This document shows, piece by piece, positions 4,501 to 34,350 of a stretch of DNA of 64,000 bases. The stretch lies in NCBI RefSeq assembly GCF_000003815.2, contig NC_049996.1, positions 7,976,012 through 8,040,011 on the forward strand, given 5' to 3'. The translations under genes were made by a program, and so were the position numbers. Origin of the DNA: Branchiostoma floridae (Eukaryota; Chordata; Leptocardii; Amphioxiformes; Branchiostomatidae). The notes beneath the pieces are model-generated. The model did not search any database and was not told the origin of the DNA. It saw nothing but the letters and a program-made list of their open reading frames with translations. The first letter of the stretch is position 1; each line of letters begins with the position of its first letter.

Positions 4501-7500
4501 TGACGCCTCTCGCTTGCGAAGCAACCCTCTCTACGTGCCCGGTGCGCTGCGAAAAGATGAAGACCGAAGTAATTCATTTATTTCATTCTCAAATATGACA
4601 AAATGCATTATACACGCTCTTAGGCAGAATTGCTTTCATAAATAACACTAGGAACAGTCATAAGTGTAAGCTACTAATTTCGTCAATGACTTGACGAGGA
4701 ACTGCACTTATGTGTTTTTGTTTTTTTAATGTCAAAATAACATGTTAATGATATTTAGACACGATTGCTAAGATAGCTGGATGAAAGAGTTAGAAGTAGT
4801 CAAAACAATGTTTTTTTTTCTAAACAATTAATAAGCCCCTGTACAAACACAGCTGCTTGACTGATGACATATAGCCTAGTATTGATATTTGTATAAAAGC
4901 TGGTAACATTCGTGGCGTGGGCAATAAATGCCAGCCGTGTGCTGACGGTGGCAACTACCATTCCCGTGTTGTTGTGTACATAGACAGGAAGTGGAGTTCT
5001 CTTCGGAGCTTGCGAAAAAGAGAACACCAGCTCCTCGACAGGGCACTAAGAAAAGCTCATGCTTTACGAAACCGTCTGACCGTTTCTGATATTCTTCAGT
5101 TGCTTGATCTAATTGCTATTAGTTTGCGTATATGGTTCACGATGTTTTGACTCCTATTATCTTAAATTTTGATAATTCTTTTCAGATTTGAGGAGGATCC
5201 TTTTGGAGACATGGTGTTCACCTTTCCGAGCCATAACCCGAGTTGTTTGTGCAGTTGCTATAATAATGGCCTGTGTTGTTGTTCCTGTCATATATCTCAC
5301 GGTGAATGTCTTTTGTTACTTTTACTTTGTAAAACTTTTTGTTATCAACTTATTTGAAACTGCATTCCAATGGAATTATTTTATCAATCATAACAGAAAG
5401 TTATTCCATGATTAGAACCCAGCTTTATATGATGATGTATTTATTGAATTATTCCCAAAAATTACATGAGTTTCAGGCAAGAAGTACAGTTAGCTTACAA
5501 AAAGCCTTCTCGTTAACAACATAAACATTAAACAAGAGTAATAAACAAAGTCAACATGCGTATATACACAATGGTTAACAAAAAGGTAAATTTAGAAATG
5601 TTTGTGGTGTTTATGTTTCTGCAGATCTTATAATTTTGGTTTAAATGTTCAAGATTTTTATAACAAAAACATTGAAATCCATAACCATCACTGCAGCTTA
5701 AGTAAAAAAAAAGTTTTGATTGTACATGTGTACAGGGTAATCAAGAAAATCCGTGGTACGAATCGACGTATTTTGACAACGTTTTGAGGGGCAACATAGT
5801 CTTAGGCCTTTAAATCATAGTGTTGCTACCTACACTACCAAAAATATTTCTTTCTTATTTTGCTTACCCCATGGACAATCCTTGTATGAAGACAGATATT
5901 CTTGCAGGAAGAAAATGTAGAATGAAATTAAAGCAAAACGAGAAACTACAAAAAAGGTTCTAGACAGTTAAGCAAAATCTTCTTATTTTTTATTATAAAG
6001 CAAGAAAAAAATTCTAGAAATTCTTTTTTTTTCTAACCAGATTAAACTCTAAAGAAATACAGTTTTGTTTTCTTCCTGGAAGATAAATTTTCTGTGAAGT
6101 AGCAAAAAAAGATAACAAGAAAAAGCATTTTTGGTAGTGTAACAATGCGCCATGATTTGTAAACTATGCTATTTACAAGCAGAGCATTAGTTTACGTCTA
6201 CCTAACCTGCACAGGTCCAGCAATATGAGCTGACGACAGCATCAACATCGCCAGATAATATAACTGACATTACAATCAATGGAACATCGGGCAGTGTAAG
6301 TGCCCTTGGGAAAGGCACTTTACACGAATTTCCTCACTATACTCAGGTGAAAATGAGTACCTAGCTTCGGCTAGGGCCGTCCCTCGGATAGGACGTTAAA
6401 TGGAGGTCCCGTGTATGGGGAGAGTCACACTCCATGCACGTTAAAGAACCCCCACACGTGCGATGGTGCGGTGTGAGATGGAACAAACCCTTCTGTCTGG
6501 AGTTGGTGATTCACTTCAAATCACCCGGATGGAGGCCTGGCGAACCTCTATACCGTATCAGCCACACGGTGATTTACCAGCGAAAGGGTATGTCACCCCG
6601 TAAGGGGCGTTATAACCCCGCCGTGTAAACATGTGCGAACATGTTCAGGGCTCCCTTGGAAATCAGTCATCTAGACTGAAGGGACTACCCTATAAGATCA
6701 ATCAATCAATCAACAGGTCCAGCAATATGAGCTGACGACAGCATCAACATCGCCAGATAATATAACTGACATTACAATCAATGGAACATCGGGCAGTGTA
6801 AGTACTTCACCAAGTGCGATACTGATATCTTCATACAGTTAAGTTATCTACGGTCGTTTTTTTCCCCAGGCTTTTTACTTTACCCCACCCCCACCCCACC
6901 CCAGGACAAATTGAAAAGCACGTAGGAAAGGCAATATGTTACTCCTGGTAAAATAAAACAAAACAAACAAACAAACAAACAAACAGACACGATGTTTGAA
7001 GTGAATTGATCTCCTCCTCCACCTTCTTCCGTTCGGTCTTTAGCCCGAATCCTACATCCCTTAGCCTGCCTGAGGGCTTCATTTATTTATTCATTTATCT
7101 TAAAGGGCGGTCCCTTCAGTCAGCAGACTGATTTCCAAGGGAGCCCTGAACCCTTCATAGACATCATGGGGCGACCAGAGGCAATCGTTACAATAGATAT
7201 CTTGAATAAGATAGAGAAACAAAACAGTACAATGCGCAAGAGGCCATGGATCCATGGAATGATCCAATCATGTAATGTCTAAACCATGCAGGGTACGGAG
7301 TGCCTCATATATTTCTAAAGAATGTGCTATTTCCTCTTATCCTATGGCTATTTACTTCATCTGCACAGGTCCATGTACGCGACCTGATGACAACATCAAC
7401 ACCGACAGATATGAAAACTGAAACCACTGGACTCAAAAGAACATCAGGCAGTGTAAGTACTTTACTTAGTGTGAAAAAAGATTTGTGCATTTGTTTTTAG

Positions 7501-9962
7501 TAAACTTTTAGTAGTTTTTCTCTAAGCCTCTGTATTTCCAAGCTTTAAATATCACCTTATAATGTATTTGGTCTCCAATTTTGTGCATGTCTGGATAACC
7601 AACGTGAAGCGGGCAGAAAGAGCATGAAAATGTTTTTACAGAGTATCATAAAATATGCATATACATTTTAGGACACTTATGCCGCTTAAATGGTTATGGT
7701 TATCAAAATATCCTCGGGGAACACAAAAACTCGTGCGCGCGTGCGAATAAAAAAGTTGCTTTTTTGTATAAAGAGATATAGAAGGTTATAATAATAAAAA
7801 AAGTCAAGCACGCGGAGTATCGTGAACTGTACAAAATCTTCCTTGACTTTGGATTGACTTTTGCAGATGCCATTTTACAAATGTGAGATGGTACTTCTTT
7901 AGCCCCAGTAATTAGTTTTTTTATCTTTTGTTTTGGACAGGATTCGGTACCTACGGTTGAAGTAACACAGTGGAAGACTGAAAATCCAGACCTGTCAGCG
8001 ACCCGAAAAGGTGTGGTACAGACAAAAGGTTTACAGTACAATTTTAAAAAGATTTACAGATCAACTCTAAATCCCTTACCTTAGAGAGAATTAGGTGCCC
8101 GTCTGTTGCTTTTACACAATTCAAGTTTGGTTACTAGTCAAAACAAAAGTTAGTGGGATTCTAATAAAATACAGCTTCCATGTGGTTAATGTACAAGCGT
8201 ACATTGTTGTGCTTCACATGTTTTAACAAATGGCTTTTTTACACACTCATTCACACCATTCCAGAAGAGGTGTTATTTTGTTTAACAATAAGTATATCCC
8301 CACACAGACAATGTATGACACGAAAGAATGCAAAAAACACATACTTGTTTATCTTTAGGGGGTCTTAACGTAAGGTGTTCACGGATCTGTAAGATATTGT
8401 TTTCGCTTATCAGTTTCAGCTGCAAGGTCCCGTTGCCAGGTTGGCTACAGATTCATCGAAACGACATGCATACGGTTTGGTTTGGAAGAGCTGCCCTATT
8501 ACGAGGCTTTACTGACCTGCGAAACGGAGGGAGCAACACTGGCTATGCCTAAGACAAAAGAACTGGACGTCGCTCTGAGGAACTTGGTTCTAACAGAACG
8601 CCAAAACCACAGTCATTGGATCGGCTTGAGAAAAAAGAAGGGGCTCAGGCGTCCAAAATATCGGTGGCAGTGGGTTGACGGATTTGTCTTGCGCAACTAC
8701 AAGGTAAAATAATGATGTTAGAAAAATTATCTTACTATCAGGCAAAAATTAAGTACCTGGACACTTTTATTCACGGAAATCAAAGTTGGCCAGAATGATA
8801 TTGCTTAATATCGCAGGCACAGACTAAATATGTATGTACTATTATGATAATTTTGAACATCAGACTGCCCATAATAATTCATCCCACCCTCAATTCTTCT
8901 CACCAAATAAATACATTAAATTGCACTTTACGTGTCATGACTTTGTGGAGCCTGCAACGCAGCTCACAAAAAATGTTGTGTTGACAAGCAAATTTTATAA
9001 TGTTTTTGTGTTTTTCAATTGTATATGATAAGAATTTTGAAGCACTTCTGGCCTATTACTAAAGTTTATTTCTGGAAGCTATATACAAATCCGTGTTCAG
9101 AACCAGCTGATATATTCACTGATGGTGTTTTTTGTTGTTTTCGTTAAATCCATTAAAATATATTTTACACTACAGACTATAATAATGGAGATTTTGTGTG
9201 TGTGTGTGTTATAACGACTTTGTCCAAGGCTGCTTTCCTATTTATCTGTTCCAAATCACTACCACACGAAATACAAAATTACATTATAACCTATTCGTTT
9301 AGTATTACGTTTCCTTTTTCGCTGTTGACGCAATCTTCTCATAGAATTGCTATTTTTTTTAATATTCACCTTCTTCATGAAATTAGTTTTTGTTTCTGCA
9401 TGTTGTGGTTATCGCAAGCTATTTTGTAACTGAGACTGAATTATGAACAATTCATAAAAGTTAAGAAGGTAGACTAATTTTGAAATGCAACGTGTGAAAG
9501 AAGAAGCAGTGTGTTCTTATGCCTTTGGGAAGATAGCTTTTTTTTTCGGTTACCAAACCGAACCTGACCTTCCTTTTCATAACTGTTACAAAGGGTATAT
9601 ATATCATGTAAGAGCTTGGATCTGGCTCAAAATATAAAACAGACGTCCTTTATTTAACATGCTGTTGTATATAGTTTAAGAGACTTGGACAGTTGAATTA
9701 GAACAGAATATTAGGTGAAAAATATTAGTATTAAGTGTTTTTGTTCAAATATTTTTGAGTAAGGCGCAGTTTAACATAAAGATGTTGTTTTTTGTCGTTT
9801 TTTTAGGGATGGAATCCAAGACGGCCCGATAACCACAGAAGGGTCAATGGAGTAGGGCAGCTTTGCGTGTCCTACTTTTCACGCGTCACTGGCTATCCTA
9901 TGTGGAACAATACTAACTGTCGATACAGAAACAGGTTTATCTGCCAAGCTCCTCTGGCATAA
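1580..9962 (+). CDS. Gene A: type II transmembrane C-type-lectin-like receptor
   Basis: I assembled nine exons by splice sites and phase: 1580-1778, 4314-4568, 5186-5301, 6215-6295, 6717-6797, 7369-7452, 7941-8010, 8420-8703, 9807-9962. They join in frame into 441 residues. Residues 1-166 form an acidic, Ser-rich cytoplasmic tail with NVYNYI and NPLYVPGAL tyrosine motifs. Residues about 167-189 (AITRVVCAVAIIMACVVV...) are a single membrane span with no signal peptide, so the protein should be type II. Residues 191-295 are a Thr/Ser-rich stalk made of small phase-0 exons. Residues about 297-441 are a CTLD split over two exons (ATLAMPKT, HWIGL, WQWVDG, MWNN, FICQ). Six CTLD cysteines fit the long form. 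Exons 4 and 5 are identical, caused by a SINE-like insertion between them; without the extra copy the product is 414 residues. The start is the first ATG, two bases after an acceptor. Ligand unknown. Confidence 0.85.
1779..4313 (+). other. Intron 1 of gene A
   Basis: A 2.5-kb A+T-rich intron bounded by CAAG|gtaaca and an acceptor ending AAAG before ATCTACC. I saw no exon, RNA gene or recognisable repeat inside it. Confidence 0.6.
5833..6139. mobile_element. MITE with CACTACC termini, TA target duplication
   Basis: Perfect 13-bp terminal inverted repeats (CACTACCAAAAAT at left, ATTTTTGGTAGTG at right) flank a 307-bp A+T-rich body, with TA at 5831-5832 and 6140-6141. A diverged, inverted relative lies at 42,700-42,998, and a truncated piece at 39,588-39,615. 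No transposase is encoded. The TA duplication suggests mobilisation by a Tc1/mariner-type transposase, which is inference. It sits in intron 3 of gene A. Confidence 0.75.
6211..6301 (+). repeat. 91-bp direct repeat, copy 1 (contains stalk exon 4 of gene A)
   Basis: The segment comprises ACAG, the 81-nt exon 6215-6295 and GTAAGT. It is identical, base for base, to 6713-6803. The exon encodes 27 residues in phase 0 beginning VQQYELTTASTS. The upstream flank (CTGC) matches the flank of the third stalk exon at 7369, so this copy keeps the original 5' side. Confidence 0.95.
6302..6712 (+). mobile_element. SINE-like element inserted beside a stalk exon
   Basis: The 411-bp insert starts GCCCTTGGGAAAGGCAC and contains GGACGTTAAATGGAGGTCC and CACGTTAAAGAACCC. 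It ends in a short ATCA microsatellite tail (about 6698-6712), as expected for a retroposed SINE. It is bounded on both sides by the identical 91-bp segment. A second copy of its 3' end lies in reverse orientation at 7078-7165. No coding capacity was seen. I do not assign a named SINE family. Confidence 0.75.
6713..6803 (+). repeat. 91-bp direct repeat, copy 2 (duplicate stalk exon 5)
   Basis: Identical to 6211-6301, including acceptor and donor. It follows the ATCA tail of the SINE-like insert directly. Its downstream flank (GTAAGTACTTCACC) resembles the flank of the third stalk exon at 7453 (GTAAGTACTTTACT), so this copy keeps the original 3' side. Exon 6717-6797 is 81 nt and phase 0, so including it adds 27 residues without changing frame. 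Confidence 0.95.
6885..6986 (+). repeat. Simple repeats: C-rich tract and (CAAA)n
   Basis: A CCCCA-rich run at about 6885-6903 is followed by a clean (CAAA)n microsatellite at about 6952-6986, in the intron between stalk exons 5 and 6. Confidence 0.8.
7078..7165 (-). mobile_element. SINE 3'-end fragment, reverse orientation
   Basis: The reverse complement reads CAGGGCTCCCTTGGAAATCAG, then CTGAAGGGAC, and ends in an A+T microsatellite tail. This matches the last 85 bp of the insert at 6302-6712. It is truncated at its 5' side, so it is an independent older insertion in the same gene. Confidence 0.75.
8420..9962 (+). CDS. Gene A CTLD exons (8420-8703 and 9807-9962)
   Basis: The first exon opens in phase 1 and encodes the N-terminal CTLD half: Cys pair RSRC/TTC, TCETEGATLAMPKTKELD, HWIGL and WQWVDG. 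The second opens in phase 0 and encodes GWNPRRPDN, GQLCVSYF, MWNNTNC and FICQAPLA, then TAA. The calcium/sugar motif that is usually EPN or QPD reads RPDN here, and the WND motif reads WNN. Classical mannose or galactose binding is therefore doubtful. The intron between them (8704-9806) holds only A+T-rich sequence and a short (GT)n at about 9195. Confidence 0.9.
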
Positions 9963-12419: not shown

Positions 12420-13869
12420 AATATGTCTGGTGAGAAATCTATACAAATGAAATTATTAAAAACATGTCATCTACAGCATGGATATCTAGTCATTGATGTA
12501 GACGACTTTAGAGCCTGTGCGGTAGTTCTAACAAAAGACAGACGGCTTTGATATAAAGTACAAACAAGTATAATCTACTTTACACCACAAGTGATTTTGT
12601 GATATCAATTGAATATAAAACGACACCTCTGAAGTAGCTATACGCCTAATCAACAAATCAAACCCAAAAATGCATACGAAAACTACTTTGAAACTTTTAT
12701 TGATAATATTAAATTATCCATATATTATAATGCCAAACCATTGCAAAAAAACAAACAAGGAATAGAGAATCGTGTACAAATTTAAACCCATGACTACTAT
12801 AAAATTACTTACACGTTGAAAGGGACTTTTACGTCGCCTTATTCATCATATATATTGAAATTAAGAAGAGATAAAATAAACATAGTTTACATTGATTTGA
12901 ACCTTTTGATTCTAAAAGATTGTAACGAGTGGTTTGGGCCCTTAAGAAATGCATGCCCCTCTCTACAGTAATAACACTTACTCAGCAACGTGCCTAGACA
13001 TCTCCTGACATGTTATCAGGAAATAATAAATATATGTACATAACTATTTATTTGCATAATAAGCACGAAAAACTTATCATAATCTAATTAGAAATGATGG
13101 GCATTTGTAAATATACAGGGCAACAAAATCACTTGCACTTGGCATACAACAAAATTCCAAAGATTTATTGTAAGGAAAAAAATATGTTGTTGGCTTATGC
13201 GCAATAAGCGATCATCAGCTATTTCCAGAACGTAAAATTGACGTTATATGATAGTAGTATAAACATGATATTGTCAACACATGAAAATATTTTTCACAAG
13301 CATTGCAGTTTTCAAGTATTATTCAGCATTCTATGCTTTTCTGCCTAGCGCATTTCAAATCGCTATACTTATAATTCAATTTATTACATTGGTATTTAAT
13401 CAAAGTGATCTAGTTGTAATAGATTCCTCATATAAAGTTTCCAACATGCAATTTTTTTACATAAGCAAATGCATAAAACCATATAGAAATTAAATAACAA
13501 ATCGCCATCTTCTAGAGCAACAAGATCTGCCTAATGAATTCTGTTTACGATTCTCTATACCACATGTAAAGCCCAGTCACTAATGATAGAGATACAAAGT
13601 ATACACGATTTTTTTTACCTGTCAGCTATATATCCATGATTTACCCAGTAAGACATCATGAACTGATTTATTATAGTTAAAGATTAAAAAATAACAACAT
13701 AAATATCACGGCTCTGGTTGTATGTATCCCAAATACTCCAATTAAACAACGCTGGATTCAGGCATCGTAAATCTTCTGTTCTCTAGTTGCACTGAAGAAA
13801 TTTCTTGATTACACCATTCTAGTTTGAATGAAAAAAAATATATTTGTTTATTGGTATGGAGACAAATGT

Positions 13870-14069
13870 ATAACTAAGGTTATTGCCTTTCGTGTGGACA
13901 AGGTTTCTCAAAGCGAGATCCAATTCTTGTGTTTTAGGCATGGCTAGTGTAGCCCCCTCCCTCTCACACGCCTCCCTGGCGCCCCAGTAATTGGTTCGTC
14001 GGGAATCGAGCCGGATGCAGGTCGTGAGAAGTAGTTTGAATCCAGGTTGGCATCCATTTCCCGTCACAG
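13870..14069 (-). pseudogene. Truncated CTLD exon of gene B
   Basis: Acceptor TTGTTACAG is followed by a phase-1 start and the residues AVTGNGCQPGFK, TTCIRLDSRR, NYWGAREACEREGATLAMPK and ELDLALRNLVHT. This is near-identical to the gene C exon at 36,724. After GGTTATTG (reading plus) the sequence jumps to DNA that in unit 2 lies at about 35,140, beyond the last exon. A deletion of roughly 1.4 kb is the simplest explanation. Confidence 0.85.
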
Positions 14070-14099
14070 CTGTAACAACATGTGGAAGCCCATTTTTCA

Positions 14100-15597
14100 C
14101 CAAACGCAGGTGAAAAGAAATTGCTAATATTATAATTAAATAAGTACCGAAGAAACACATTGCAAAAGTATTTTATTTATCAAATGGTATTATCATTATT
14201 ATTGTTATCATAAAAATTAACATATGAAAATCGAAAGTGATTTGCCGGCTGAATCAATAGTTCTTTATGTTTCTCTAATCGTTGTTCGCAATTTAAGGTC
14301 TTGTTATTGTATTACTCCGAGTGGGCACTCACAAAGAATCCCTTCCAAAATATAAATGGGGCTCCAAAATCGAGTGTTTATGTAAATGTGAAAGTTGCCT
14401 TTAATCTCGATCTCCCCCATATCATATAGAAAGGAATTGAGATGAAAGGTTGTGTTTTTCTGACAGGATAGGGTGGGAAGGTTTCGGCAATCGAGCGAGT
14501 ATCGGACGTGTACGTTTGTCACGTAAGGATAGCCCATCTTTGTTGATAGTACTTATATGTAGTTATAGATGATATAAAGATCGATTCACCAGTCGGATTT
14601 TGGGAGACATTTTTTTTTCATTGATTGCTGAATACGTGCCCTGGCAATAAAAACTAAAACACCTCCGGCAGAAATGTTTCTTTATTGGATTTTCGCCCAT
14701 TAAAATTGCATATTTAAGCGTCATTGTAAATGAGACAACATAAGCCGGGTATGTAACCATAATATGTTACACTTTATACATATTATGTTATAATTTATCT
14801 GGTTGGTACTCATTGGGATGATGCTGTACATGTTACTGCTGCCTAGGGATACAGTAATATTCAGTAGAACCAAAATACTCTCGCATGGAGTACAGTATGT
14901 CATTTCTGCGATTCCGTTGCCTAAAACCGCCGAACTCAAGGAATACATTATCATTTTACGTTTTTATATAGGATATAACACTTCTGCTGTCAAAAGCAAC
15001 ATCGATGAGTTTGAAATGGCGCTACATACATTTAAATTGTCGGTCAAGAACACATTTTATCTATCATGACTTTACAAAACAAATTGAGCAGTTCAAGCTT
15101 TGTGTGCTAAACTAAAATGAAACTAGAGTTCCAAGATCTCATACTTCACGAAATTGTTTAAATCTTTTCGACTTTAGTGTTTTATTTTTCATTTTCAATT
15201 TGATTATGCAAATAAGACAATTATGTGCATAATTAGCATTACTAAATCGTAGCAGAGAATGCCATTTTAGTGTTCCCTCATTATCTAAGCAAATATCACA
15301 TCAGGTTTGCACGATTTACATCAAATAAGGTCTACCTTCGCTAAGATGTCTACATTGTAAGAATAAAAATCCTATCATTTACCACTATGGGATTAAGATA
15401 TTTCCAATTCAGATCGCCATTTGCATAATTGATATATGTTGACAATTCTCTCTTTCTCAGTTACATATGTAACAAGTTTAAATGAAATTTCATAAAATGC
15501 AGTTAAGTTATAAACTTATTATCAATCATGCAAAACAGCTGTTGGTTTGCATACATAATATCTCACTTAGGCCATCTACATACCAAAAATATGATAA
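14100..15597. mobile_element. Unit-1-specific 1.5-kb insertion, unclassified
   Basis: In unit 2 the sequence GAAGCCCATTTTTGAC passes directly into TATTCGTCAACACG. In unit 1 the same two sides are separated by about 1.5 kb of A+T-rich DNA. A fragment near 15,118-15,150 resembles sequence at 25,535-25,575, hinting at a dispersed repeat. No coding frame or clear terminal repeats were found. Confidence 0.5.
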
Positions 15598-18988: not shown

Positions 18989-21900
18989 TTAAAAGCGTAG
19001 TCGCAGTTTTCCCCCGTCGACCCTCGCCCACTGCACTGAGCACCACAGAGACATAAACGTTGTTTCGTTCAGACGTACAAAGTCAAGCTTTATTTTTGAG
19101 CGGAGGCACTCCTTGATGTATGGGACCATCTCGACATGAGTCGAAAAGGTCTTGTCAAAGAGTGCTTCACAACGTGAGGACCATATGCGTTTCCTCGCGA
19201 CGGCCAGGGTGTAGGTGATAGCATCTATCTTGCATTTTTTCCATGAGGGTGGCAGGATGCCATAGATAACCATCTGTTTATTTATTCGGAAGTCTGACAT
19301 GACCCACCTCCTGAGAAATCCCTCCACCCAAGTCCATGTTAGCAGCACTTCGCTGCAGTACCACATGGCGTGCTCTACAGTTTCGTGGCCTTTACAATTC
19401 TGCCTTGGACAAGTTCCCGAGCGAATGTAACCCCAGTTCGAGCAAAGCAGGGCATTCGTTTTGAGGGCGTGGTGTGCAACCAGCCATGCAGTGTCCTTCA
19501 GTCTGTTCTCCAGGAGTGGGTGTTGAACAGATTGGAAGGTTAATGGCCAGGGAACAGAACGCTTGTTAAGACAGACGCTTGGAACGTGAGCATCCTTCTT
19601 CAGAAGACTGTCGTATAGAGACCGCGTAGTGCACCCGGGGTCCCACTTTTTAGAGGGGGATGCCTCTACGAGTTCAGATACCAGGGACTGTAGAGCTTTG
19701 TAGTGGGGAGGGGCATTCGGGGAGTGGGGCATGTTATTGGACCATGTTGACGGGTCGAAACGTCTAATGAAAATACCGAGCCAGTACCTGGCGAGCTGCA
19801 CCCAAGGTAAGTCTTCCTGGGACATGATGTCCGAGAAAGGCCGACTGTACAGACATTTTGCCTTCTTTGCTATGTCGATTAGGCCCCAGCCGCCCTTCTC
19901 AGGAGGAAGGTAGATGGTATTTCGGCTGATCATCTCCCGCTTTTTGTCCCAGAAAAAGGCGAACAGTGCGGTATTGATTTCCTTCATGACCGAATCAGGA
20001 GGGGTGAACACCGACGCCAGGTACCACAGTTTGGCTGTGGCTAGAGAGTTTGCCACTGTCACTTTGCCTGTAAAGGAGAGGGATCTGGCTCCCCATCCTT
20101 GTAAGGTTTCAACAAATTTGCGTTTACCATCCTTCCAGTTGGTTAGGGGCATGTCAATGTTGCCAAAGACCCCACCAAGCAGACGGATGGACCCAGATGT
20201 CCATTTTATTTGTACAGGGGTGTCTGTTCTATTTCTCCATTTCCCCAGCCATAACCCCTCACACTTGTCTAGGTTCAACATTGAGCCTGAGCCTCTGTTG
20301 TACAGCCCGACAAGGTCAAACAGCCTGACGATAGAGTCGTCTGATGTCAGGAAGGCAGAGTTATCATCTGCATACAGAGACATTTTGGCTTCGTAGCCGC
20401 CTGGGAGTTTTACTCCATGCACCTCAGAGTCTTTGCGGACTGTCGCCGCAAACGGCTCAAGAGAGATTGCATACAACAGTGGCGAAAGTGGGCATCCCTG
20501 CCGCACTCCCCTTGTTAGGGCGAAGGGAGACGACAGGGAGCCATTCACCAAAACGGAACTGGAGATGTCGTTGTAAAGTATTGAAACCCACTTCCCAAAG
20601 GAAGGTCCAAATCCCATTCGTGCGAGAGTCTGTTGTAGAAAGGAGATGTTGACACGGTCAAAGGCTTTTGCTTGATCAAGGGAGACAATAGCACATTCGA
20701 TGTTATTGTTATTTGCGTAAACAACTATGTCTCGTGTGAGTCGGAGGTTGCACTGGATCGACCTTCCTGGTACACCACAGGTTTGGTCCGGGTGCAACAC
20801 CGACGCTATTACAGACTGAAGGCGGTTATTAAGAACTTTAGTCAAAATTTTGTAGTCGGTGTTTAGGAGGGAGATTGGTCTCCTGTTCTTGGGGTCCAAT
20901 TCGTCTCCCTTCTTTGGCAACAGTGTCAAAACCCCAAACTTCTGGCTGGAGGAAAGTTCTCCAGCATCAAGAGCTTCTTGAAACACCTTCAGGAGGTCGT
21001 CGGCAATCAGATGCCAGAAGGTCGTGTAGAACTCTTTGGGTAGACCATCACTGCCCGGGCATTTATTATTTTGCATGCTGCGGACTGAGTTTAACATTTT
21101 GTCGGTTGAGAGAGGGGCCTCCAATGCTTGGGCCTCCTCTGGGGTCAATGTGTTTTCAAGGTTGTCACAAAGCTGGTCAGAGGCAACCGGGTCCACTGGT
21201 TCCTCAGCAAACAGCTCTGCGTAGAATTCGTAGAAAACATTTGCGATTTCGTCATCCTCATGGACAACTTGTCCCATTGAGTCTCGTATGGCACAGATCC
21301 TTTTCTTCTTGCCGTTGGAAGCGGCCTGCTTTAGAAAGAAGGACGTGCACTTTTCCCCCTCCTCAAACTGTTTGATTCGGGACCTGACGATGGCGCCCTG
21401 AGCTTCAGAGGTTGCCAACTCTGACAGTGCGTCTTTCGTGGTCTTATATTGTCTCAGGACATCAGGTGAGACCGCACCAGCATTAAGCTGGTTGGTCAGA
21501 TCCCCTAAAGTGTTGTTCAGTTGGTAACGAACTTCTCTTTTGTCTTTGGCTATCTTACATGAGTGCTTAATAAACAAGGAGCGGGTTCGGTCTTTGACGT
21601 CATCCCACCAAGATCTCAGGGAAGGGTAACCTAACTTCAAAGTCTGCCAGTCCTTGTAGGACGCAGTGAAGTCCGACTGGACTTCTTTGTTCTTTAGGAT
21701 GGAAACATTGCACTTCCACATGGAAGACTTCTTTTTAGCTGTTGGAAGCACATCAATTCCCACACAATCGTGGTCTGTGAAGTATGCAGGCCGGAAAAAA
21801 TGGCCAGAGACGGGCAGATTGTTGGATGAGTAAAGTCTATCCAGTCGACATGCTACAGCGTTATCAGGTTGACGCCACGTATATACGCGCCCATCCGGAT

Positions 21901-22495
21901 TCAGCTGCCTCCATGAGTCATGTAGGTTGTGACTAGCACAGAGGTTCTTTAGAATTTTCGAACCTCCAGAACTACGACTTGGATTCCCCCCTCTTTTATC
22001 TAGGCTGGGAGACTCAATGCAGTTGAAATCCCCACAAAGGACCGTGGACTCAGAGTAGGATAAGAAATTGCCTAGACCACGGAAAAATGTGGATCGTTCA
22101 GCTGCATCATTCGGTGCGTATACGTTGCACACTCGAAGAGAGCGCGTGCCGTCAGCCAGGACTGCGGAAACTACGCGACCCTCATCATCGCAGAATTTCT
22201 TAGTTATTTTCAAGTCAAGGGATGGAGAAAGCAGGATGCCTACACCTCTAGAATTGGGCGTACCAAGGCTCCATAGGGCCTGCCCTCCCCATTCCTTTTC
22301 CCACTTAGTAGTTTCATCCACATGGGTAATGTGACTCTCTTGCAGGCAAACAATATCAAATTTGTGTTGTCTGCAATAGTCGTATACCTGTTTGCGTTTG
22401 TTGGGATTGCGCATCCCGCAAACGTTTAAGGTTGCTATAACCACCATCGTTAACATAAAGAAGGCATTGAGCCTATGCATATTTTGGGGCATCAT
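18989..22495 (-). CDS. LINE ORF2: endonuclease and reverse transcriptase
   Basis: Open frame of 1168 codons. Residues about 20-245 are an apurinic-type endonuclease, with ATLNVCGMRN, QES at 52-54, GDFNCI at 155-160 and TDHD near 240. Residues about 440-760 are the reverse transcriptase, with NNKCPGSDG, RRPISLLNTDYKILTK, QAKAFD near 610, GVRQGCPLSPLLY and YADD at 708-711. Further on come FFWDKKRE near 847 and a Cys/His cluster at about 1029-1047 (CPRQNCKGHETVEHAMWYC). It nicks target DNA and copies the element RNA at the site. All catalytic motifs are present. The start codon overlaps the ORF1 stop as TAATG, which points to coupled termination and reinitiation. Confidence 0.92.
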   Translation of the reverse strand: MMPQNMHRLNAFFMLTMVVIATLNVCGMRNPNKRKQVYDYCRQHKFDIVCLQESHITHVDETTKWEKEWGGQALWSLGTPNSRGVGILLSPSLDLKITKKFCDDEGRVVSAVLADGTRSLRVCNVYAPNDAAERSTFFRGLGNFLSYSESTVLCGDFNCIESPSLDKRGGNPSRSSGGSKILKNLCASHNLHDSWRQLNPDGRVYTWRQPDNAVACRLDRLYSSNNLPVSGHFFRPAYFTDHDCVGIDVLPTAKKKSSMWKCNVSILKNKEVQSDFTASYKDWQTLKLGYPSLRSWWDDVKDRTRSLFIKHSCKIAKDKREVRYQLNNTLGDLTNQLNAGAVSPDVLRQYKTTKDALSELATSEAQGAIVRSRIKQFEEGEKCTSFFLKQAASNGKKKRICAIRDSMGQVVHEDDEIANVFYEFYAELFAEEPVDPVASDQLCDNLENTLTPEEAQALEAPLSTDKMLNSVRSMQNNKCPGSDGLPKEFYTTFWHLIADDLLKVFQEALDAGELSSSQKFGVLTLLPKKGDELDPKNRRPISLLNTDYKILTKVLNNRLQSVIASVLHPDQTCGVPGRSIQCNLRLTRDIVVYANNNNIECAIVSLDQAKAFDRVNISFLQQTLARMGFGPSFGKWVSILYNDISSSVLVNGSLSSPFALTRGVRQGCPLSPLLYAISLEPFAATVRKDSEVHGVKLPGGYEAKMSLYADDNSAFLTSDDSIVRLFDLVGLYNRGSGSMLNLDKCEGLWLGKWRNRTDTPVQIKWTSGSIRLLGGVFGNIDMPLTNWKDGKRKFVETLQGWGARSLSFTGKVTVANSLATAKLWYLASVFTPPDSVMKEINTALFAFFWDKKREMISRNTIYLPPEKGGWGLIDIAKKAKCLYSRPFSDIMSQEDLPWVQLARYWLGIFIRRFDPSTWSNNMPHSPNAPPHYKALQSLVSELVEASPSKKWDPGCTTRSLYDSLLKKDAHVPSVCLNKRSVPWPLTFQSVQHPLLENRLKDTAWLVAHHALKTNALLCSNWGYIRSGTCPRQNCKGHETVEHAMWYCSEVLLTWTWVEGFLRRWVMSDFRINKQMVIYGILPPSWKKCKIDAITYTLAVARKRIWSSRCEALFDKTFSTHVEMVPYIKECLRSKIKLDFVRLNETTFMSLWCSVQWARVDGGKLRLRF

Positions 22496-23794
22496 TATAG
22501 AGATTCTCCAGATGACGTGAACTCGTCGATGGCTAGCTCTCCTGATAAGGGAAGGTCGTAACCGGGACTATGAGGGCCCTTCGTTACTGTCGACGGCTCA
22601 CTCTTTCTTTTTGGGCTGACTTCTTCGTCGGAAGGCGCAGGCCTTTTAGAGGTCTGCTGGTCGACTTCCATCGCGTCAGATGACGGGTCTCCAGTATGTG
22701 GGGGCCTTCTTCTTGGCCACCACATTTTTGACTGGTGTCTGACTCTGAGACTCTTCGACCTCGTTGTTCTGTTTGCGGCCATTTTTGGCCTTGCCCTTGC
22801 GCTTCTTGCGCTTCTTGTTGCGAGGATGGGCTGTTTCTTGCTCCCCGTTTGGTTCAATGCGCTCCGCAGAGCTCGGAGATGGTTGGGTTGCTTCAAGAAG
22901 CAGCTCCCTTTCTTTCTCCGTCAGTTCGTCAGAGGAAGCAAATTCCTCGGCGGAATCATCTTCCCCGCTCTCCTCCGACCCAGAGTCGCTGGAGTCAGTC
23001 TCGTTTGTTTGCTCACTCTGACTCTTACCACTGGAGACAGTCTCGTTTACTTGAGACTGCTCACTCTGACCAGGGGTCTTAGCACTGGCCACGGTTGCCT
23101 CAGCAGCCGGACCGCTGGTCCACTTATTGTCAGGCAGCAGTTTGTTGGCATATGACGTGGGGCACCGACGTGCGGTGTGTCCCTCCTTGCCGCACTGATT
23201 ACAGACTACTTGATTGCTGCATTCCGCAGAGGTATGCCCAATCAGTTGGCATTTGTTACAGAAGATGACAGTACATTGTGCTGCCTCGTGCCCTTCCTGG
23301 TAACATTTCAGACATGTTCTTTGTTGTCCGACATACCGGAAAAAGGCTAACCGACCGTCTGCTAACCTCCAAGAGGACGGGATGTTTGCCCCTGGTTTGA
23401 GTATAACCTTGTACTGCCTGTTCCCATTACGGACAGTAGGTCTGTCCCTGTAGGTGGTCATACGGGAAGCCAGGACCTGTCCATAACGGGATAGCCAGTG
23501 CCGTACGTGATTGTCATCAAACTCGTCCGGTATACGGGTTGCTGTGACGACTGTCTCAGCACTTCCGTACACACGGACATCTAAGTACTGTAGTGCCGAG
23601 AGTTTACCCCCATACAACTTTCTATCGTGAAGCGTACGGAAGGTCAAATCAAAAGACGTAGCGTTCAGCGCTTGCACTGTCTGGAGACTGGATGTAGGTA
23701 TCCCCACAGAGTCCAGGAGTGCCCAGGTCTCCTGCTCAGATAGCTTGTCTTTCTGAGCGGTATACGTAACGCAAATTGAGTTGTCTCTCCTCAT
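22495..23794 (-). pseudogene. LINE ORF1: zinc-knuckle RNA-binding protein, one frameshift
   Basis: The frame starting at 23,794 gives 372 residues. An N-terminal domain of about 150 residues is followed by three CCHC knuckles (residues 161-174, 179-192, 198-211), then an acidic Ser/Glu-rich region and a basic KKRKKRKGK stretch. It stops at 22,676. The other frame, open to 22,495, carries what looks like the true C-terminus. The two meet at a run of five identical bases at 22,700-22,704 (C in sense), so a one-base length change there explains the break. It may be a mutation, a sequencing error or, less likely, programmed shifting. The second frame ends exactly where ORF2 begins. Confidence 0.8.
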
Positions 23795-24567
23795 TTTGCC
23801 TAGTCCAAAATCAGTCTATTTCTCTGTGGAGTATATGGAAGGTTCCTTCTAGGGTCTCCAGAAACCCCTTTTAGAGCCCCGGAATGCCACCTATTCTAAA
23901 AATAGCGATTGACCCAGAAAAACAGTGGCACCAGGCGGTGTGCTTGGACTGTACCAACCCCTTCACCCACTATGGCCGGGGGGCGAGGGTACAGAAACAG
24001 CTCAAAACACCACAAATTCGATTCGAAGCGAAACAAGACTATGTAGGAATGTTGGCACAAACCTGCTTTCCTTTCCTACAAAGTAGGAAGAGTATCCCTT
24101 CACGGGCAAGGGAAATATCTACCGGCAAAGATTGCACGTGTCCACCTACCCTCGTCTAGCGGCCCTTCCAAAGGCCCTTCTTTCCTTGCCGAGTTTCATG
24201 GCTTAGTTAGACAATGGTACATTCCAGACGAGTATTAAAACGCTCTTCTAGACGCATGTTACTGTATGTGGTCCAGCGTAATAAATCTACGCTTTAACTC
24301 ACCATGTTCATATAAATATATATCACAAATTGCATCAGAAGGAACTTAGTTTGTAATAAAAAATAATGCATATTCATTGTGGGTCAAAAAGTTTTACAAA
24401 ACCTGTTTAATGTGCCAATAATTCATCTGACATAAATTATGATAATGAGGGGGAGGGGGGCGACATGTGGAACTCGGGATTTTTAAGCGTAGAATCTAGT
24501 CTAACTTACCAAAATAACATAAAATACGCGGCAAGGCACAGCTTTTTTAAAAAGATTTCTTGTTTGG

Positions 24568-28642: not shown

Positions 28643-29655
28643 TTAGGTAATCCGGTGGCACAGCAGGGACCGCATGGCGGCTGGCAGACGCAAGCGTTGC
28701 GCCATGGTGAGTTGCAGGTAGAGGAGATCGGCGTCAGATTTCCAGTCTCCGTGGTGACGGCGAAGTTCGCGTGGAACCCCGGCCTCAAAGGCCAAGGTGT
28801 AGCCGCCTCGACGCAAGTCAAGTAGGGTGTGATACCTGGGTGGCAATCCTGCTTTGTTGACCAAGCGTGCGAAGGCTTTGTCAAGGACTGAGCCGGTGAG
28901 CGGACGTAATGGGCGACGTGGTGTTGGGGGAAGCTGGAAAGCTGGAGAAGCGGGTCTGGCTGGAACAAGGCGAAGCATGTTGTTGTACGCGAGCACGGGA
29001 CAGAGCTGCGAGCCTGGGATAGCGAGGATAGGAATCTGTAACTGTCGTTCGTTTGCTTGGATCGTTTTGGACCAGCGCACCGTGACGAGAAGGCCTGCTG
29101 AGCTGACCGAGATGTCGGCGCGGCTAAGGTGTTTCCGCGGGTCGAAGGTTGCTGCGGAGGAAGGTACCAGGTTAGACTTCCTTAGGAATGTAAAGAAGCC
29201 CAGCAAGAGGACGGCCCAGATGGTGGCGTCTTTGGGATCTTGATGGTTCAGGAAACCGTGCAGCTGCGACAGGAACTCAGGAGTCACGGGGTGGTGTTCG
29301 CGTGGTCGGTGTTGTAGTGCCCTTTCTATGCCTTTAAGCGTTTGGCGGAGTTCGAAATGGTCCAGCGTTAAGTCATAATGTCCATTAAGTTGATGAAGGA
29401 GTTTGACCGACGAGAGATAATGTGAAATCGTACTTGGAGACCGAATTGATTTGCTCAGAAACTGGGCATAGCACGACAAGAGGTGTGGTGTGGCTGGAAT
29501 CGGCTCCTGATGGAAGAAGCCGCAGAAGAGAAGATATGCCTTGAAGTGGGTTCTGTGATTCGCCTGCGTGCTCTGTGCAAAGGCCTGCCTCTGGGTGCAC
29601 AGTGTCTCTTTCTGTAGGTTGGTCCAGGCCTGAGCTGTAAAGATGAAGGATACAA
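28643..29655 (-). CDS. Tyrosine recombinase of the DIRS-type element
   Basis: From the first ATG (29,479) the frame gives 278 residues, but it stays open without an ATG up to about 29,655. That extra part (AWTNLQKE, HFKAYLLFCGFF) looks like the N-terminal core-binding domain, so translation probably starts upstream or by another mechanism. Counting from 29,479, R100 (FTFLRKSN), K138, R223 (LRRGG), H243, W246 (GDWKSDA) and Y254 fit the catalytic set. The usual HxxR histidine position is Leu220 (LDLRRGG), an oddity that might weaken activity. The enzyme would join the circular DNA copy to the chromosome. Confidence 0.85.
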
Positions 29656-29681
29656 GGTTTCAGTGTTTGGAGGATGACCTA

Positions 29682-31721
29682 TTACCAAGTGTGCGACATA
29701 TAGAATGCATCTGGTGGCACTCGGACCTGTGTCCACTGCTTCGTCTCGGGATATGTGCGGAACTGCTGTTCGCACGCGGGATCGAGATGCCATCTGCTTA
29801 GTAAGTCTGGAAGTCGATTGTCTCGACCTGGCACGTGCCGTGCGGATAGATGAAAGTCGCGCTGGAGCTGTAGCAGGATCAGCTCGCGTCCGCACGCTTG
29901 CAGGAAATAGTCCGTGGACCGACCCGAGTTGATGACCTGAACTGAAGGCATATTATCACAGCCTACGACGAGCTGCTGGCCAGCCCAATTGCGACCCCAT
30001 ATGTTACAGGCGATAATGATCGCCAAAGTCTCAAGTCTATGTATGGGGTGTGACTCGCGGAGAACATCGTCTGGGAACTTCGTGTGGAAATACTCTCGTT
30101 GCGACGGGCAAACGCCCCCGCAGCCGGTGAGGCAGGCGTCTGTGGCGACTGCCTGATCTGTGTCTGAACTTGGGTTTGTGACGATAAGGGAAAAGCCGTT
30201 GAAGACTGTCATAGAAACCTGCCACCAACGTATATCCTTGCGAAACTCTCTGTTTAGACGAGTACTGTGGTGATTCTTCCTTAGGCTGCGAAGGGTGTTC
30301 AGAATCCTCGATATGAAGACCCGACCCTGGGGAGCGCAGGCTGTCAGAAACATCAGTTTGCCGAGAAGCGACTGAATCTCTTTCTTGGTAGCTCTTCTCT
30401 TGTTGGACCAAGCTCGCAGTTCCTCCTGAATGTCAGCTAGGCGGTCATCGGTGATGTACTTGAGCATGCGAACAGAGTCATAACCGAGGCCCAGGAAAGT
30501 CATGCTGGTGGAAGGTGGGCATGCCTTCGACGGAGACTCGACCACACCCAAGGTGCTGAAGGTAGTCGCTAACTCTTGGAAGGCGTCTCCGGCTTTGTGC
30601 GGTACTTCTGCTCCGCCAAAGTCGTCTATGTAATTCACGCAGTCAAACCCTTTCGCGTTGTAGATGTAGGTGATAGCGTTCGTGGTGCGTTGCATTGCCA
30701 TGGCTGCCGACCTCAGGCCGAAGGGAAACGACAAGTCCATGTAGAATTCATCCCTCCACTTGAAGCCTAGAAGATCATAATCTATAGGGTCCACCGGAAT
30801 TTGCCTGTACGCCCGGCTCAAGTCCCTCTTAAAAAGGAAACACCCGCGGCCTTTGTCTCGGATCAACTGTTCGAAGGCCTCGTAACCTGGCAACTTGAGT
30901 TGGAAAGGAGATCCCAGGTAACTGTCGCCGGGAATGCCGGCGTTGACTGAGAATCCGGGGGGGAAACTTAGATCCAATACGATGCGTCTATTATCAGAGT
31001 CCTTTTTTGGGACCGTCTGCAAAGGGGACGTCATGAGCGTGCCTGAGAGCGGGTTAACCTTGAAGGGACCGGAGATTGATTGGAATGAGAGCTCGGTAGC
31101 TATGTAACGGTCCACGTGGTCTGGAAAGGCTCTGGCAGAGTTGTGATTGCGCGGAGCTGGAGTCAGCCGAGATGAGCGTTCAAAGTTGATAGGCCAGCCA
31201 AATTGTAAAAAGTCACATACGATTGCGTCGGGATAGTCTTGAAGTTCTGTTCGCCAAGCGTCGATCACGAGCGGAGACGGCACTGGAATGCGTGCGCCTT
31301 GAAAATTAAACTGACCTGATGATTGGACCGAGTTGTGCAGGTAAACGTAGAAATATGCTGGGTTGGATGGGAGATTTCTTCGTGGCGTGGGATCAATAAC
31401 TTCTGGTGCAGTGACGACCTCGCAAGTGGGGTGAGAAGTTTTCTCTCGTGTTGGCTTGGGGTGTGTTGCGATCCGAGAAGTGTGTGAGTGTGGTTGGCTG
31501 ATGTGATGGACCTGTGTGTCCACCGACCCTGCCGTGTTGTCTTGGTTGTAGCGTGTGGGAGTGTCACAGTGCTTGGAGGTAGAAATCCATCCTGTACCCA
31601 TCTGTTTGCGGGAGCCATGCGTGGATAATTGTGTATGACTGTGACTTGAGACTGTTGGCAGTCGTTCGTGATCAAGACTGGAATGAGTTTCTGAGTGTGT
31701 TGTAAGGAAGTCTATAAACAA
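29682..31721 (-). CDS. Reverse transcriptase and RNase H of the DIRS-type element
   Basis: Open frame of 679 codons. The first 180 residues are polar and unassigned. The reverse transcriptase spans about 210-440, with KKDSDNRRIVLDLS, FKRDLSRAYRQIPVD, FPFGLRSAAMAMQR and YIDD at 364-367. RNase H spans about 520-645, with ATDACLTGCGG, LETLAII, GCDN and ARHVPGRDNRLPDLLSRW, so all acidic residues are present. The frame is intact from end to end. It copies element RNA into DNA. It starts 54 nt after the Gag-like stop and ends about 26 nt before the recombinase frame. Confidence 0.92.
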   Translation of the reverse strand: MFIDFLTTHSETHSSLDHERLPTVSSHSHTQLSTHGSRKQMGTGWISTSKHCDTPTRYNQDNTAGSVDTQVHHISQPHSHTSRIATHPKPTREKTSHPTCEVVTAPEVIDPTPRRNLPSNPAYFYVYLHNSVQSSGQFNFQGARIPVPSPLVIDAWRTELQDYPDAIVCDFLQFGWPINFERSSRLTPAPRNHNSARAFPDHVDRYIATELSFQSISGPFKVNPLSGTLMTSPLQTVPKKDSDNRRIVLDLSFPPGFSVNAGIPGDSYLGSPFQLKLPGYEAFEQLIRDKGRGCFLFKRDLSRAYRQIPVDPIDYDLLGFKWRDEFYMDLSFPFGLRSAAMAMQRTTNAITYIYNAKGFDCVNYIDDFGGAEVPHKAGDAFQELATTFSTLGVVESPSKACPPSTSMTFLGLGYDSVRMLKYITDDRLADIQEELRAWSNKRRATKKEIQSLLGKLMFLTACAPQGRVFISRILNTLRSLRKNHHSTRLNREFRKDIRWWQVSMTVFNGFSLIVTNPSSDTDQAVATDACLTGCGGVCPSQREYFHTKFPDDVLRESHPIHRLETLAIIIACNIWGRNWAGQQLVVGCDNMPSVQVINSGRSTDYFLQACGRELILLQLQRDFHLSARHVPGRDNRLPDLLSRWHLDPACEQQFRTYPETKQWTQVRVPPDAFYMSHTW

Positions 31722-31775
31722 TTGGGGATCATGTACTTCAGTAACATCGGATAATTGGGAACCGTTCGAGTCTAG

Positions 31776-33029
31776 TCATGCGTTGTTGGTTGGCTTGCCT
31801 GCTTGATACTGGAGCCTGGTGGCTCTGTCGTTGTAAGGGCAATCCTTGGCTGGGTGATTGAGGGGGACCTCCGGGCGGTAACGCGTGCAAAACTTGCACT
31901 TGTGTGCCAGGCCTGCGTGGTTGTCTGGGAGAGTGCAGAAACCTCCCTGGTATTTGGGGCATGTGTAGTCGGACGAGTATCTGTCCTTCTTCCAGCTGAC
32001 ATTGGAAGAAAGCGAGCCTGAACTTGTGGTAAACGACCCAGTTGGAGGCTTGATATCGGGCTTCTTGAGGTACTTCTGTTTCAACTTGTACAAGGATGGG
32101 TAGATATCCTGGTCTTCTAGATCAAATAGTGCTTTCTCGGCCTGCGTGAGCATGATTTTGTAGAAGAATCTTACCCCTTCGAAGGTGAACGTTGAAATGT
32201 CCAACATTAGGTTCTGTAGGATGACGCCCCTATTATCCCTCTCATTCTGTGACGCGTCGGTCCCGAAGATTATTGCAAGCTCGCCAGCTACGAGCTGATC
32301 CCATGTGATGTTGTCGGGTGTAACTGTGCCCGTGCTGCTAAATACGAACTCATGCGGCCAGAGTACTTCCCTTTTAACCTTGTCGTGCACTTTACGGGTC
32401 AGACCGCTAACGAGCTTAGTGGTCTTACCTTGGGAAGGTGTCTCCTCGTTGTTGAACCGCACCTTGGGTAGGGGAGCCGCTCGGTTGTCTGCTGGCCACG
32501 GCGCTTGGGCATGCAGGCCGGCCGCGTTCTTGGGGGCATCCAGCAGATTCATGGCCCTTAACTCTTGCAAAGTCGGGTACGAGTTATCGTAGGTCGTCTT
32601 TCCTGCTTGCTGGTGCTGTGTCGAGGCCGTGATGTGTTGAGAAGTCTCACGTCCTGCTGTTTCTTTCATCTGTTGACTATCCGGAACGCAGGCAAGATGG
32701 CCGCCGAGATCTCGTTGTTTATCGCGAGAGAGCGGCTGTGTCGAAAGGCGGGAAACGTGGTTGGGAGGGGGGTTGGCTGGTCGAGTGATCCCGGGGGCCC
32801 CTCCCCCGCTATGGATATGGGCCAGGTCCAGCTGCAGCTCCGTGAGGTCCCTGGTGATTTCTTGGAATCGTTGTTCAAAGAAATCTTCCACGGAGACTTG
32901 TTGCGGTGTAGAAGTTGCCCGCGGAGGCGCGGAAGTGACGGTAGCGAATGGGGTCCCAAGGTCGTATTCCTGATATCTGACTGGAATCGAAGCTTTCCTC
33001 TTTGGTCTGGCCATCGCCACTGGAATCAA
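31776..33029 (-). CDS. Gag-like protein of the DIRS-type element
   Basis: Open frame of 417 codons, first of the three on the minus strand. The N-terminus is basic (ARPKRKASIPVRY). The middle has a conserved-looking block (HEFVFSSTGTVTPDNITWDQ, FEGVRFFYKIMLTQAEKALF). The C-terminus has a Cys/His cluster at about 365-402 (TCPKYQGGFC, HAGLAHKCKFC, HPAKDC) that could bind nucleic acid. The role as structural protein is inferred from position and layout. Confidence 0.8.
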   Translation of the reverse strand: MIPVAMARPKRKASIPVRYQEYDLGTPFATVTSAPPRATSTPQQVSVEDFFEQRFQEITRDLTELQLDLAHIHSGGGAPGITRPANPPPNHVSRLSTQPLSRDKQRDLGGHLACVPDSQQMKETAGRETSQHITASTQHQQAGKTTYDNSYPTLQELRAMNLLDAPKNAAGLHAQAPWPADNRAAPLPKVRFNNEETPSQGKTTKLVSGLTRKVHDKVKREVLWPHEFVFSSTGTVTPDNITWDQLVAGELAIIFGTDASQNERDNRGVILQNLMLDISTFTFEGVRFFYKIMLTQAEKALFDLEDQDIYPSLYKLKQKYLKKPDIKPPTGSFTTSSGSLSSNVSWKKDRYSSDYTCPKYQGGFCTLPDNHAGLAHKCKFCTRYRPEVPLNHPAKDCPYNDRATRLQYQAGKPTNNA

Positions 33030-33138
33030 GATGTGAGTTGCGCTTGCTGCGACGAAAACCAGGTGAATTCTGAACCGTTCTATCTGAAATTAAACGATAC
33101 TGATGCCTTTTGTGTCAGCGAGAGTCTCTGAAGTCTTT

Positions 33139-33245: not shown

Positions 33246-33365
33246 CATTATTGAACATATTAGTATAATGCATTATGATTCTTGAAACAAACTTTCTTCT
33301 AATTATTCAGGGCAATGAGAAGAATTTAAAGAAACTTGAAGATGAATAGACAAGAGGCCACATAC

Positions 33366-33639
33366 CTTCGGCATCAACGTTATCTGGATGTGGCATACCC
33401 TTTGGGTCAGCTTGGCTTGCCACCTGTGGTTGTGGCGGGAGATCTTTGTCACGAATTGTATAGTACACATCCGATGTCTCTTCGCACTTATCTGAAATCT
33501 TATCTGATTCTTCTTTGCAGTTGTCAGAGGAATCAATGCCAATATTACGGGTATGGCAAGATTTGAACGGCGGATTTCTTGTTTTACCGTTGCCTGACCC
33601 CGCACGAGGGGACCTGACTGACTCTGTTTGTCCGTCCAT
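33366..33639 (-). CDS. Cytoplasmic-tail exon of gene B
   Basis: ATG at 33,639; donor GCCGAAG|gtatgtgg at 33,366; 91 codons plus one base. It encodes MDGQTESVRSPRAGSGNGK, NPPFKSC and DVYYTIRDKDLPPQP. It is about 75 percent similar to the gene C exon at 47,714-47,999, which carries four extra residues. Joined to the membrane exon at 18,098 it stays in frame through G|AT. The upstream 400 bp are also conserved between the two copies, as expected if they contain the promoter. Confidence 0.7.
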
Positions 33640-34350
33640 GTCTACAGTACAAGTCAGTAACAGATCGAACAGATATACAAGTGAGAGTATAGATATGTTT
33701 GAATATGCAAAATGATGCCGTCATTAATAGTCTACGGATGAAAAAGTTTGTTTACATTTACCCTTATCTTCAAAGAAAAGCGTGGGGTTATCAATAATGT
33801 TTGTTTTTTGACGTATTGAGATAGCACGTTGTTTTTCTGCACGGGCAGACTAATTTGGAGTTATTGTTAAAATTAATGTGAGTTCGAATATACAGATTAT
33901 GCTTTTAAGGTGTATTTTGATTCAATATTAATGTGTAGGATGAATATGTTATGCAACGCATTTAATCCTGCCTTCTCCGTACAAAATCCCTTACCTAAAC
34001 CTAACTTTGAGGACGTTGACTTACCCGTGCCCCAGATAAGAAAAGAGACCTAGGCTTAACGTGAGAAGAAAGGTCTTGGTAAAAGAGCAAAATTCTCAGA
34101 ATTTAGCTCTAGAAGTAAGAGCAGTGTCCTTGATTTAAGAATATAAAGATAAGAAAACTTTCTGGTAGGTGGTAAGGATTTATCTTTTTAAGTGATAGCA
34201 GAAATTCAGATGCAGATATCTACATTGGGAGGAGGTTGTATGTTGAAGATTGCCTAATACTCGAATATTCATGAAATTTTCGTGGAAAAAAACTTCAACA
34301 GAATGATATCCCCTTTTGACATGTATAAAATACAGACTTTGCGTAAAGAA
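33640..34350. promoter_or_regulatory. Conserved upstream region of gene B
   Basis: The first 400 bp (to about 34,040) align closely with the region upstream of gene C's first exon (48,000-48,385), including TTTGTTTACATTTACCCTTATCTTCAAAG-type sequence and TTTTTTGACGTATTGAGATAGCACG. A promoter is inferred from position and conservation; no TATA box was pinned down. Beyond 34,040 the two units diverge, to the unit junction near 34,350. Confidence 0.4.

Follow-up and report, generated by a model that had tools for sequence, protein, structure and literature searches.

An exon-long duplication, probably a target-site duplication, around a SINE in an amphioxus C-type lectin receptor gene

In a stretch of 64,000 nucleotides from Branchiostoma floridae (contig NC_049996.1, positions 7,976,012 to 8,040,011; hereafter the window), a SINE lies between two identical copies of a coding exon, each complete with its splice sites. 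By far the best explanation, to which we give a probability of roughly 0.88, is that the 91-bp repeat holding the exon is the target-site duplication (TSD) of this SINE, made by target-primed reverse transcription, as this reading accounts for the exact repeat, the tail at the 3' end, the truncated 5' end and the flank polarity.

Comparing the sequence with itself gave a direct repeat of two 91-nt segments (6211-6301 and 6713-6803), 100% identical and offset by 502 nt, which abut a 411-nt insert (6302-6712) on both sides (Table 1). Both segments are made up of ACAG, an 81-nt exon and GTAAGT; the exon is open in phase 0, reads VQQYELTTASTSPDNITDITINGTSGS, and has AG before it and GTAAGT after it in either copy. 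This agrees with the original prediction, which had described identical 91-bp segments around a 411-bp insert with an ATCA tail, and a duplicated unit of one phase-0 exon with 4 and 6 extra bases. Its length needs a small amendment: the last GT of copy 1 (6300-6301) also matches SINE positions 86-87 and, because it fits both target and SINE, the duplication is 89-91 bp long. The duplicated exon sits between the transmembrane exon (5186-5301) and an older stalk exon (7369-7452), upstream of the lectin domain. With Lectin_C downstream of a transmembrane (by eye) and stalk region, the gene has the features of a C-type lectin receptor; its second lectin-domain exon (9810-9962), searched alone, had no Pfam match.

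Table 1. Features of the receptor gene and its SINE insertion (positions within the window)
Feature	Position	Strand	Remarks
Exon with transmembrane stretch, ending in phase 0 before the stalk exons	5186..5301	+	Transmembrane stretch by eye; predicted exon
TSD copy 1: ACAG, exon copy 1, GTAAGT	6211..6301	+	Older left flank kept; final GT may be the SINE's (2-bp microhomology)
Exon copy 1: 81 nt, phase 0, 27 residues, 2 N-glycosylation sequons (NIT, NGT), 10 Ser/Thr	6215..6295	+	
Predicted new intron, 421 nt, nearly all SINE	6296..6716	+	Donor GTAAGT (TSD copy 1), acceptor ACAG (TSD copy 2)
SINE insert, 5'-truncated: positions 88-498 of the 498-nt composite, without the tRNA-derived head (A and B boxes)	6302..6712	+	
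SINE 3' tail: four ATCA units, joined straight to TSD copy 2	6697..6712	+	Relatives have ATCA-type tails
TSD copy 2: ACAG, exon copy 2, GTAAGT	6713..6803	+	Older right flank kept
Exon copy 2, identical to copy 1; acceptor behind the ATCA tail	6717..6797	+	
Stalk exon, older homologue of the duplicated one, 84 nt, phase 0; its flanks serve as yardstick	7369..7452	+	
C-type lectin domain, first part	8416..8703	+	Pfam Lectin_C, E 7.4e-07; exon start read as 8414 or 8420

The insert had been called SINE-like, and its relatives identify it as a real SINE. We searched the genome (513 Mb, 431 contigs) with 6211-6803 as query; the best 40 of 4023 candidates scored gave 42 matches, three in the locus itself and 39 outside the window. 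Among these listed matches elsewhere, 17/39 span nearly the whole insert at 95-100% identity, and 38/39 begin at query position 90. Since scoring stopped at the best 40 candidates, this list understates the size of the family; a 50-mer of the SINE 3' end finds 28 places in the genome with up to three mismatches. The relatives share a start at query position 90 because most of them continue 5' into a head that is absent from the window copy. Of 20 copies whose 5' flanks were compared, 17 run on for ~85 nt into this common head, and the other three are cut at position 31, at position 50 (locus L009) and at position 166. In the 498-nt composite, A-box and B-box patterns occur at nt 12 and nt 56, with none from nt 86 on. 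The family thus has a tRNA-like head with RNA polymerase III A and B boxes, and its dispersed copies are near-identical (up to 99-100%) and carry the same kind of 3' tail. The window insert, judged by its sequence, is a young tRNA-derived SINE, truncated at position 86 of ~498, where it meets its target. ARAGORN detected no tRNA in the window, in keeping with a copy that lacks the head, and an Rfam search of 5000-8000 (E up to 1) returned no match.

The 3'-most ~65 nt of the SINE also end another dispersed sequence of variable 5' extent, which is suggestive, though only that, of a LINE partner. In the table of PMC3747384, the amphioxus SINE BflSINE1 is listed with the LINE partner Crack-16_BF; like the insert, it is a tRNA-derived SINE. 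An inverted relic of the same type's 3' end lies at 7082-7151 (~86% alike to 6643-6713). Eight further copies (L080-L087) belong to a second SINE subfamily, which resembles the first in its body but has another 3' end and a AAATAAAT-type tail; by eye, several of their 5' junctions seem to hold extra bases between target and SINE.

If the repeat is a TSD, each copy should keep one of the old flanks, and the original prediction had assigned the ancestral left flank to copy 1 and the ancestral right flank to copy 2. Taking the flanks of the homologous exon 7369-7452 as yardstick, we found this borne out: in the 16 nt preceding ACAG, copy 1 agrees with it at 10/16 positions and copy 2 at 2/16, and in the 16 nt following GTAAGT, copy 1 agrees at 5/16 and copy 2 at 12/16. 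Over 30 nt, the right side remains clear (15 vs 8 matches, with at least 15 reached by 0.6% of 20000 random places), whereas the left side is weak (11 vs 9 matches, with at least 11 reached by 14%). By this yardstick the flanks are polarised as in a TSD, convincingly over 30 nt on the right and only near the exon on the left.

To set the 91-bp duplication against its family, we surveyed 27 of the 28 places matching the 3'-end 50-mer, the window copy included. The 28th place (L079) was left out, as were, among others, L024 and L026, two full-length SINE relatives with no run of at least 4 nt. The caller sought exact runs with small shifts, and a run may include up to two bases of the element. 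It found none of at least 4 nt in 13 members, 4 nt in four, 5 nt in three, 6 nt in two, 7 nt in one, 8 nt in two, 10 nt in one and 91 nt in one. In 702 mispaired flank controls, 572 had none, 96 had 4 nt, 29 had 5 nt and five had 6 nt, with none above 6 nt. Matching ends of at least 6 nt thus occur in 7/27 members (window copy included) vs 5/702 controls, and we conclude that the SINE family makes TSDs, as tRNA-derived SINEs do, yet there is no run of at least 4 nt in 13/27.

One other member has a long duplication. At L009 (G000:C6:17282207-17283621), the SINE cut at position 50 is flanked by a duplication of 54/53 nt with one 1-nt length difference in the local alignment. The exact caller gives only 4 nt there owing to that difference, so exact runs and local alignments were both used. 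The duplicated piece reads PILLYGSEIWGA by eye, which is reminiscent of non-LTR reverse transcriptase frames. Both this copy and the window copy have a direct repeat of more than 20 bp that meets an insert with a 3' tail, while the other 25 of the 27 have a duplication of at most 10 bp or none detected. The family-wide survey proposed with the original prediction thus yielded a second long case and a family in which short duplications prevail. Judging from these copies, long duplications are a rare but real product of this SINE family. They occur in 2/11 5'-truncated and 0/16 full-length copies, a difference that is not significant (P = 0.16).

Other candidates for long duplications were rejected. 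A 34-nt match at L051 (around G000:C175:9932-9965) has 4/34 differences and belongs to an older tandem repeat of ~31 bp with the SINE inside it; such mimicry of a long duplication is a warning for automated surveys. The matches at L022/L045 and L053 lie in repeats and are either unanchored at both junctions or in a CATC repeat. Besides the window copy, the exact caller found no run above 10 nt in 53 loci, some of which are other elements with only the common 3' end. Outside repeats, flanks of ~1.0-1.5 kb at L001-L008 and L029-L058 (~400 nt at the remaining loci) yielded no additional long duplication with an anchor at each junction. The eight copies of the second subfamily, which stand outside the count, have short repeats of up to ~12 nt by eye and no long one.

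Some of these observations count against a TSD: 91 bp is far beyond the family's usual 0-10 bp, duplications are long in just 2/27, the exact caller finds no run of at least 4 nt in 13/27 relatives, and the left yardstick is weak over 30 nt. Other routes to the same arrangement have therefore to be weighed. A double-strand break with ~90-nt overhangs could have been filled in during endonuclease-independent repair that captured a SINE cDNA. Duplicated ends would be expected in that case too, and the 5' truncation and 2-bp microhomology are compatible with it, but the 3' tail of the SINE is present and meets the duplicated segment directly, as in the relatives with short TSDs, whereas a captured cDNA would generally often be 3'-truncated; we find such a repair event very improbable. 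Even less probable is that the exon was first tandemly duplicated as a 91-bp unit, and that the SINE later hit the junction exactly, without a TSD of its own. The older homologue at 7369-7452 indicates that stalk exons were duplicated before, and L051 is a case of a SINE in an older tandem repeat that mimics a TSD. Against this order of events, the SINE would need one exact position among ~182 and would have to leave no short TSD at the junction, the copies are identical at 91/91 positions whereas the L051 units differ at 4/34, and the exons would have stood 10 nt apart before the insertion, a distance well established to be too short for an intron.

We give the smallest chance of all to an assembly artefact, in which alleles with and without the SINE were wrongly joined. 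Amphioxus genomes are highly heterozygous (3.2-4.2%; PMC12500494), and there are assembly gaps within the window; these begin at 42175 and 50118, with no N stretch near the insert. Moreover, the 3' junction coincides with the tail end known from the relatives, and L009 has the same anatomy elsewhere in the genome. The right junction occurs once in the assembly (up to three mismatches), and no empty allele was seen there.

Under target-primed reverse transcription, a SINE RNA with an (AUCA)n tail, mobilised by the proteins of a partner LINE, would have entered the stalk region. The first nick would fall on the bottom strand just left of the acceptor ACAG, where reverse transcription of the tail would start, and synthesis would stop, or be joined early, 85 nt short of the SINE 5' end. 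The second strand would be cut ~89-91 nt to the right, just past the donor GTAAGT, where 0-10 nt is usual, and would then be joined to the cDNA, perhaps via the 2-bp GT microhomology. Filling in the long stagger would then double the whole exon with its AG and GT, leaving two identical phase-0 exons with a SINE-made intron between them. Here we infer the nick positions, the enzyme and the use of the exons, around an observed anatomy, SINE identity, truncation, flank polarity and rarity of long duplications. This is a one-step model, in which a single ~90-nt staggered cut would make exon and intron together, in frame.

The original prediction had also stressed that so long a duplication coincides with exon borders. 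We counted the placements of a 91-bp segment within this gene that contain an entire exon along with its AG and GT, and found 11 to 29 of 5644 (29/5644 with the end of the exon at 7941 set at 8010, and 11/5644 with it at 8028). By chance, ~0.2-0.5% of such events in this gene would hold an exon. Given many genomic insertions at ~0.2-0.5%, and a case that was picked since it fits, chance suffices; the fit to the exon borders looks like chance, with no sign of targeting. Most members of the family have a duplication no longer than 10 bp or none detected, and the other long one is 53/54 bp. The SINE, the TSD as the best reading, the polarity and the two in-frame exons of the original interpretation are supported, whereas a link between duplication length and exon borders is not.

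That one insertion gives two in-frame exons is supported by the joined reading frame, which is open with one or with two exon copies. If both copies are spliced in, the stalk would gain 27 Ser/Thr-rich residues (10 Ser/Thr) with two N-glycosylation sequons; if copy 2 is skipped, the old protein remains. The frame is kept either way, so the insertion would be nearly neutral at birth. The two acceptors are differently placed. Copy 1 keeps its native upstream stretch, CTACCTAACCTGCACAG, with a CTAAC resembling a branch point by eye, whereas copy 2 is preceded by ATCAATCAATCAACAG, its native upstream splice signals gone and the ATCA tail in their place. Pyrimidines make up 8/16 of positions -20 to -5 at copy 2 and 11-13/16 at the gene's other acceptors, copy 1 included, in a small sample and by a crude measure; counting T alone, both copies have four. 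Copy 2 may be weakly used or skipped. Exon gain in the RNA stays a prediction, with an acceptor at copy 2 that lacks the native upstream signals.

Amphioxus alleles diverge by 3.2-4.2% (PMC12500494), so that 3-4 differences would be expected between neutral copies of the age of an average allele pair. The two 91-nt copies have no differences (91/91), which hints at a young insertion that may still be polymorphic; it is no more than a hint, given that the segment is largely coding.

Exons are often duplicated in tandem, but the birth of such a duplication is seldom caught. Here, both of its edges have stayed exact, and the agent still lies between the copies. We hold it possible, though rather doubtful, that a single SINE jump brought about both intron gain and the doubling of a whole coding exon via an exon-long TSD, making a longer and more glycosylated stalk, and that, together with L009, this represents a recurrent and as yet undescribed way to duplicate exons in tandem, with the insertion here perhaps still polymorphic. 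TSDs of 60-200 bp with a whole exon inside could be looked for in any genome with active LINEs.

Several known systems resemble parts of this arrangement. LINEs occasionally make long TSDs (L-TSDs, >20 bp) beside a short peak typical of their clade; 1/25 inserts of zebrafish ZfL2-2 in wild-type chicken DT40 cells has a long TSD, of 1228 bp (PMC2666801), and elements of the L2 clade have a TSD peak at 3-5 bp, with the CR1 clade very similar (PMC4245944). Rare long cases beside a short peak are found here too, but with a SINE, read from a genome assembly, and with one whole exon as the duplicated target. TSDs of 6-17 bp are reported in another source (PMC3219598). Some introner families have TSDs of 3-9 bp; in certain families both splice sites come from the insertion site, and one adds four residues (PMC9860276). 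The predicted intron here would likewise draw donor and acceptor from target sequence, but the insert adjoins an existing exon and copies it whole, 27 residues long. Intron gain by tandem genomic duplication (PMC4974935) similarly ties intron gain to recent local gene duplication; the start of its abstract names no retroposon, whereas here the duplication comes with a SINE. The titles and abstract starts listed, in searches that cover few subscription papers, report no retroposon TSD holding a whole exon, and the available parts of two papers that mention both TSDs and exon duplication (PMC13172734 and PMC7602945) describe none holding an exon. Intron gain driven by TSDs is known; by these searches, a TSD that holds a whole exon appears to be new.

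The window also contains further lectin-like receptor exons, along with frames of cytoplasmic appearance that carry VYYTIRD or VYYTFRD, at 13819-14172, 36429-36761, 33307-33720 and 47661-48086 (minus strand), and looks like a receptor cluster. Pfam finds Lectin_C at 36429-36761, and the frame at 13819 is similar by eye. Other repeats are present as well. A short MITE-like element with inverted ends (TACACTACCAAAAA) has two copies, 86% alike, at 5831-6144 and 42695-43000, one of which sits in the intron preceding the duplicated exon. On the minus strand, 18989-23815 has long frames like those of a non-LTR retrotransposon, with a zinc knuckle in the first frame, and 28643-33089 has frames like those of a DIRS-type element, parts of them resembling reverse transcriptase and recombinase (both by eye). 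Finally, 54915-59976 and 39813-40560 hold tandem arrays of 162-163-bp units, with five successive arrays of ~4.5 copies each at a spacing of ~1.1 kb.
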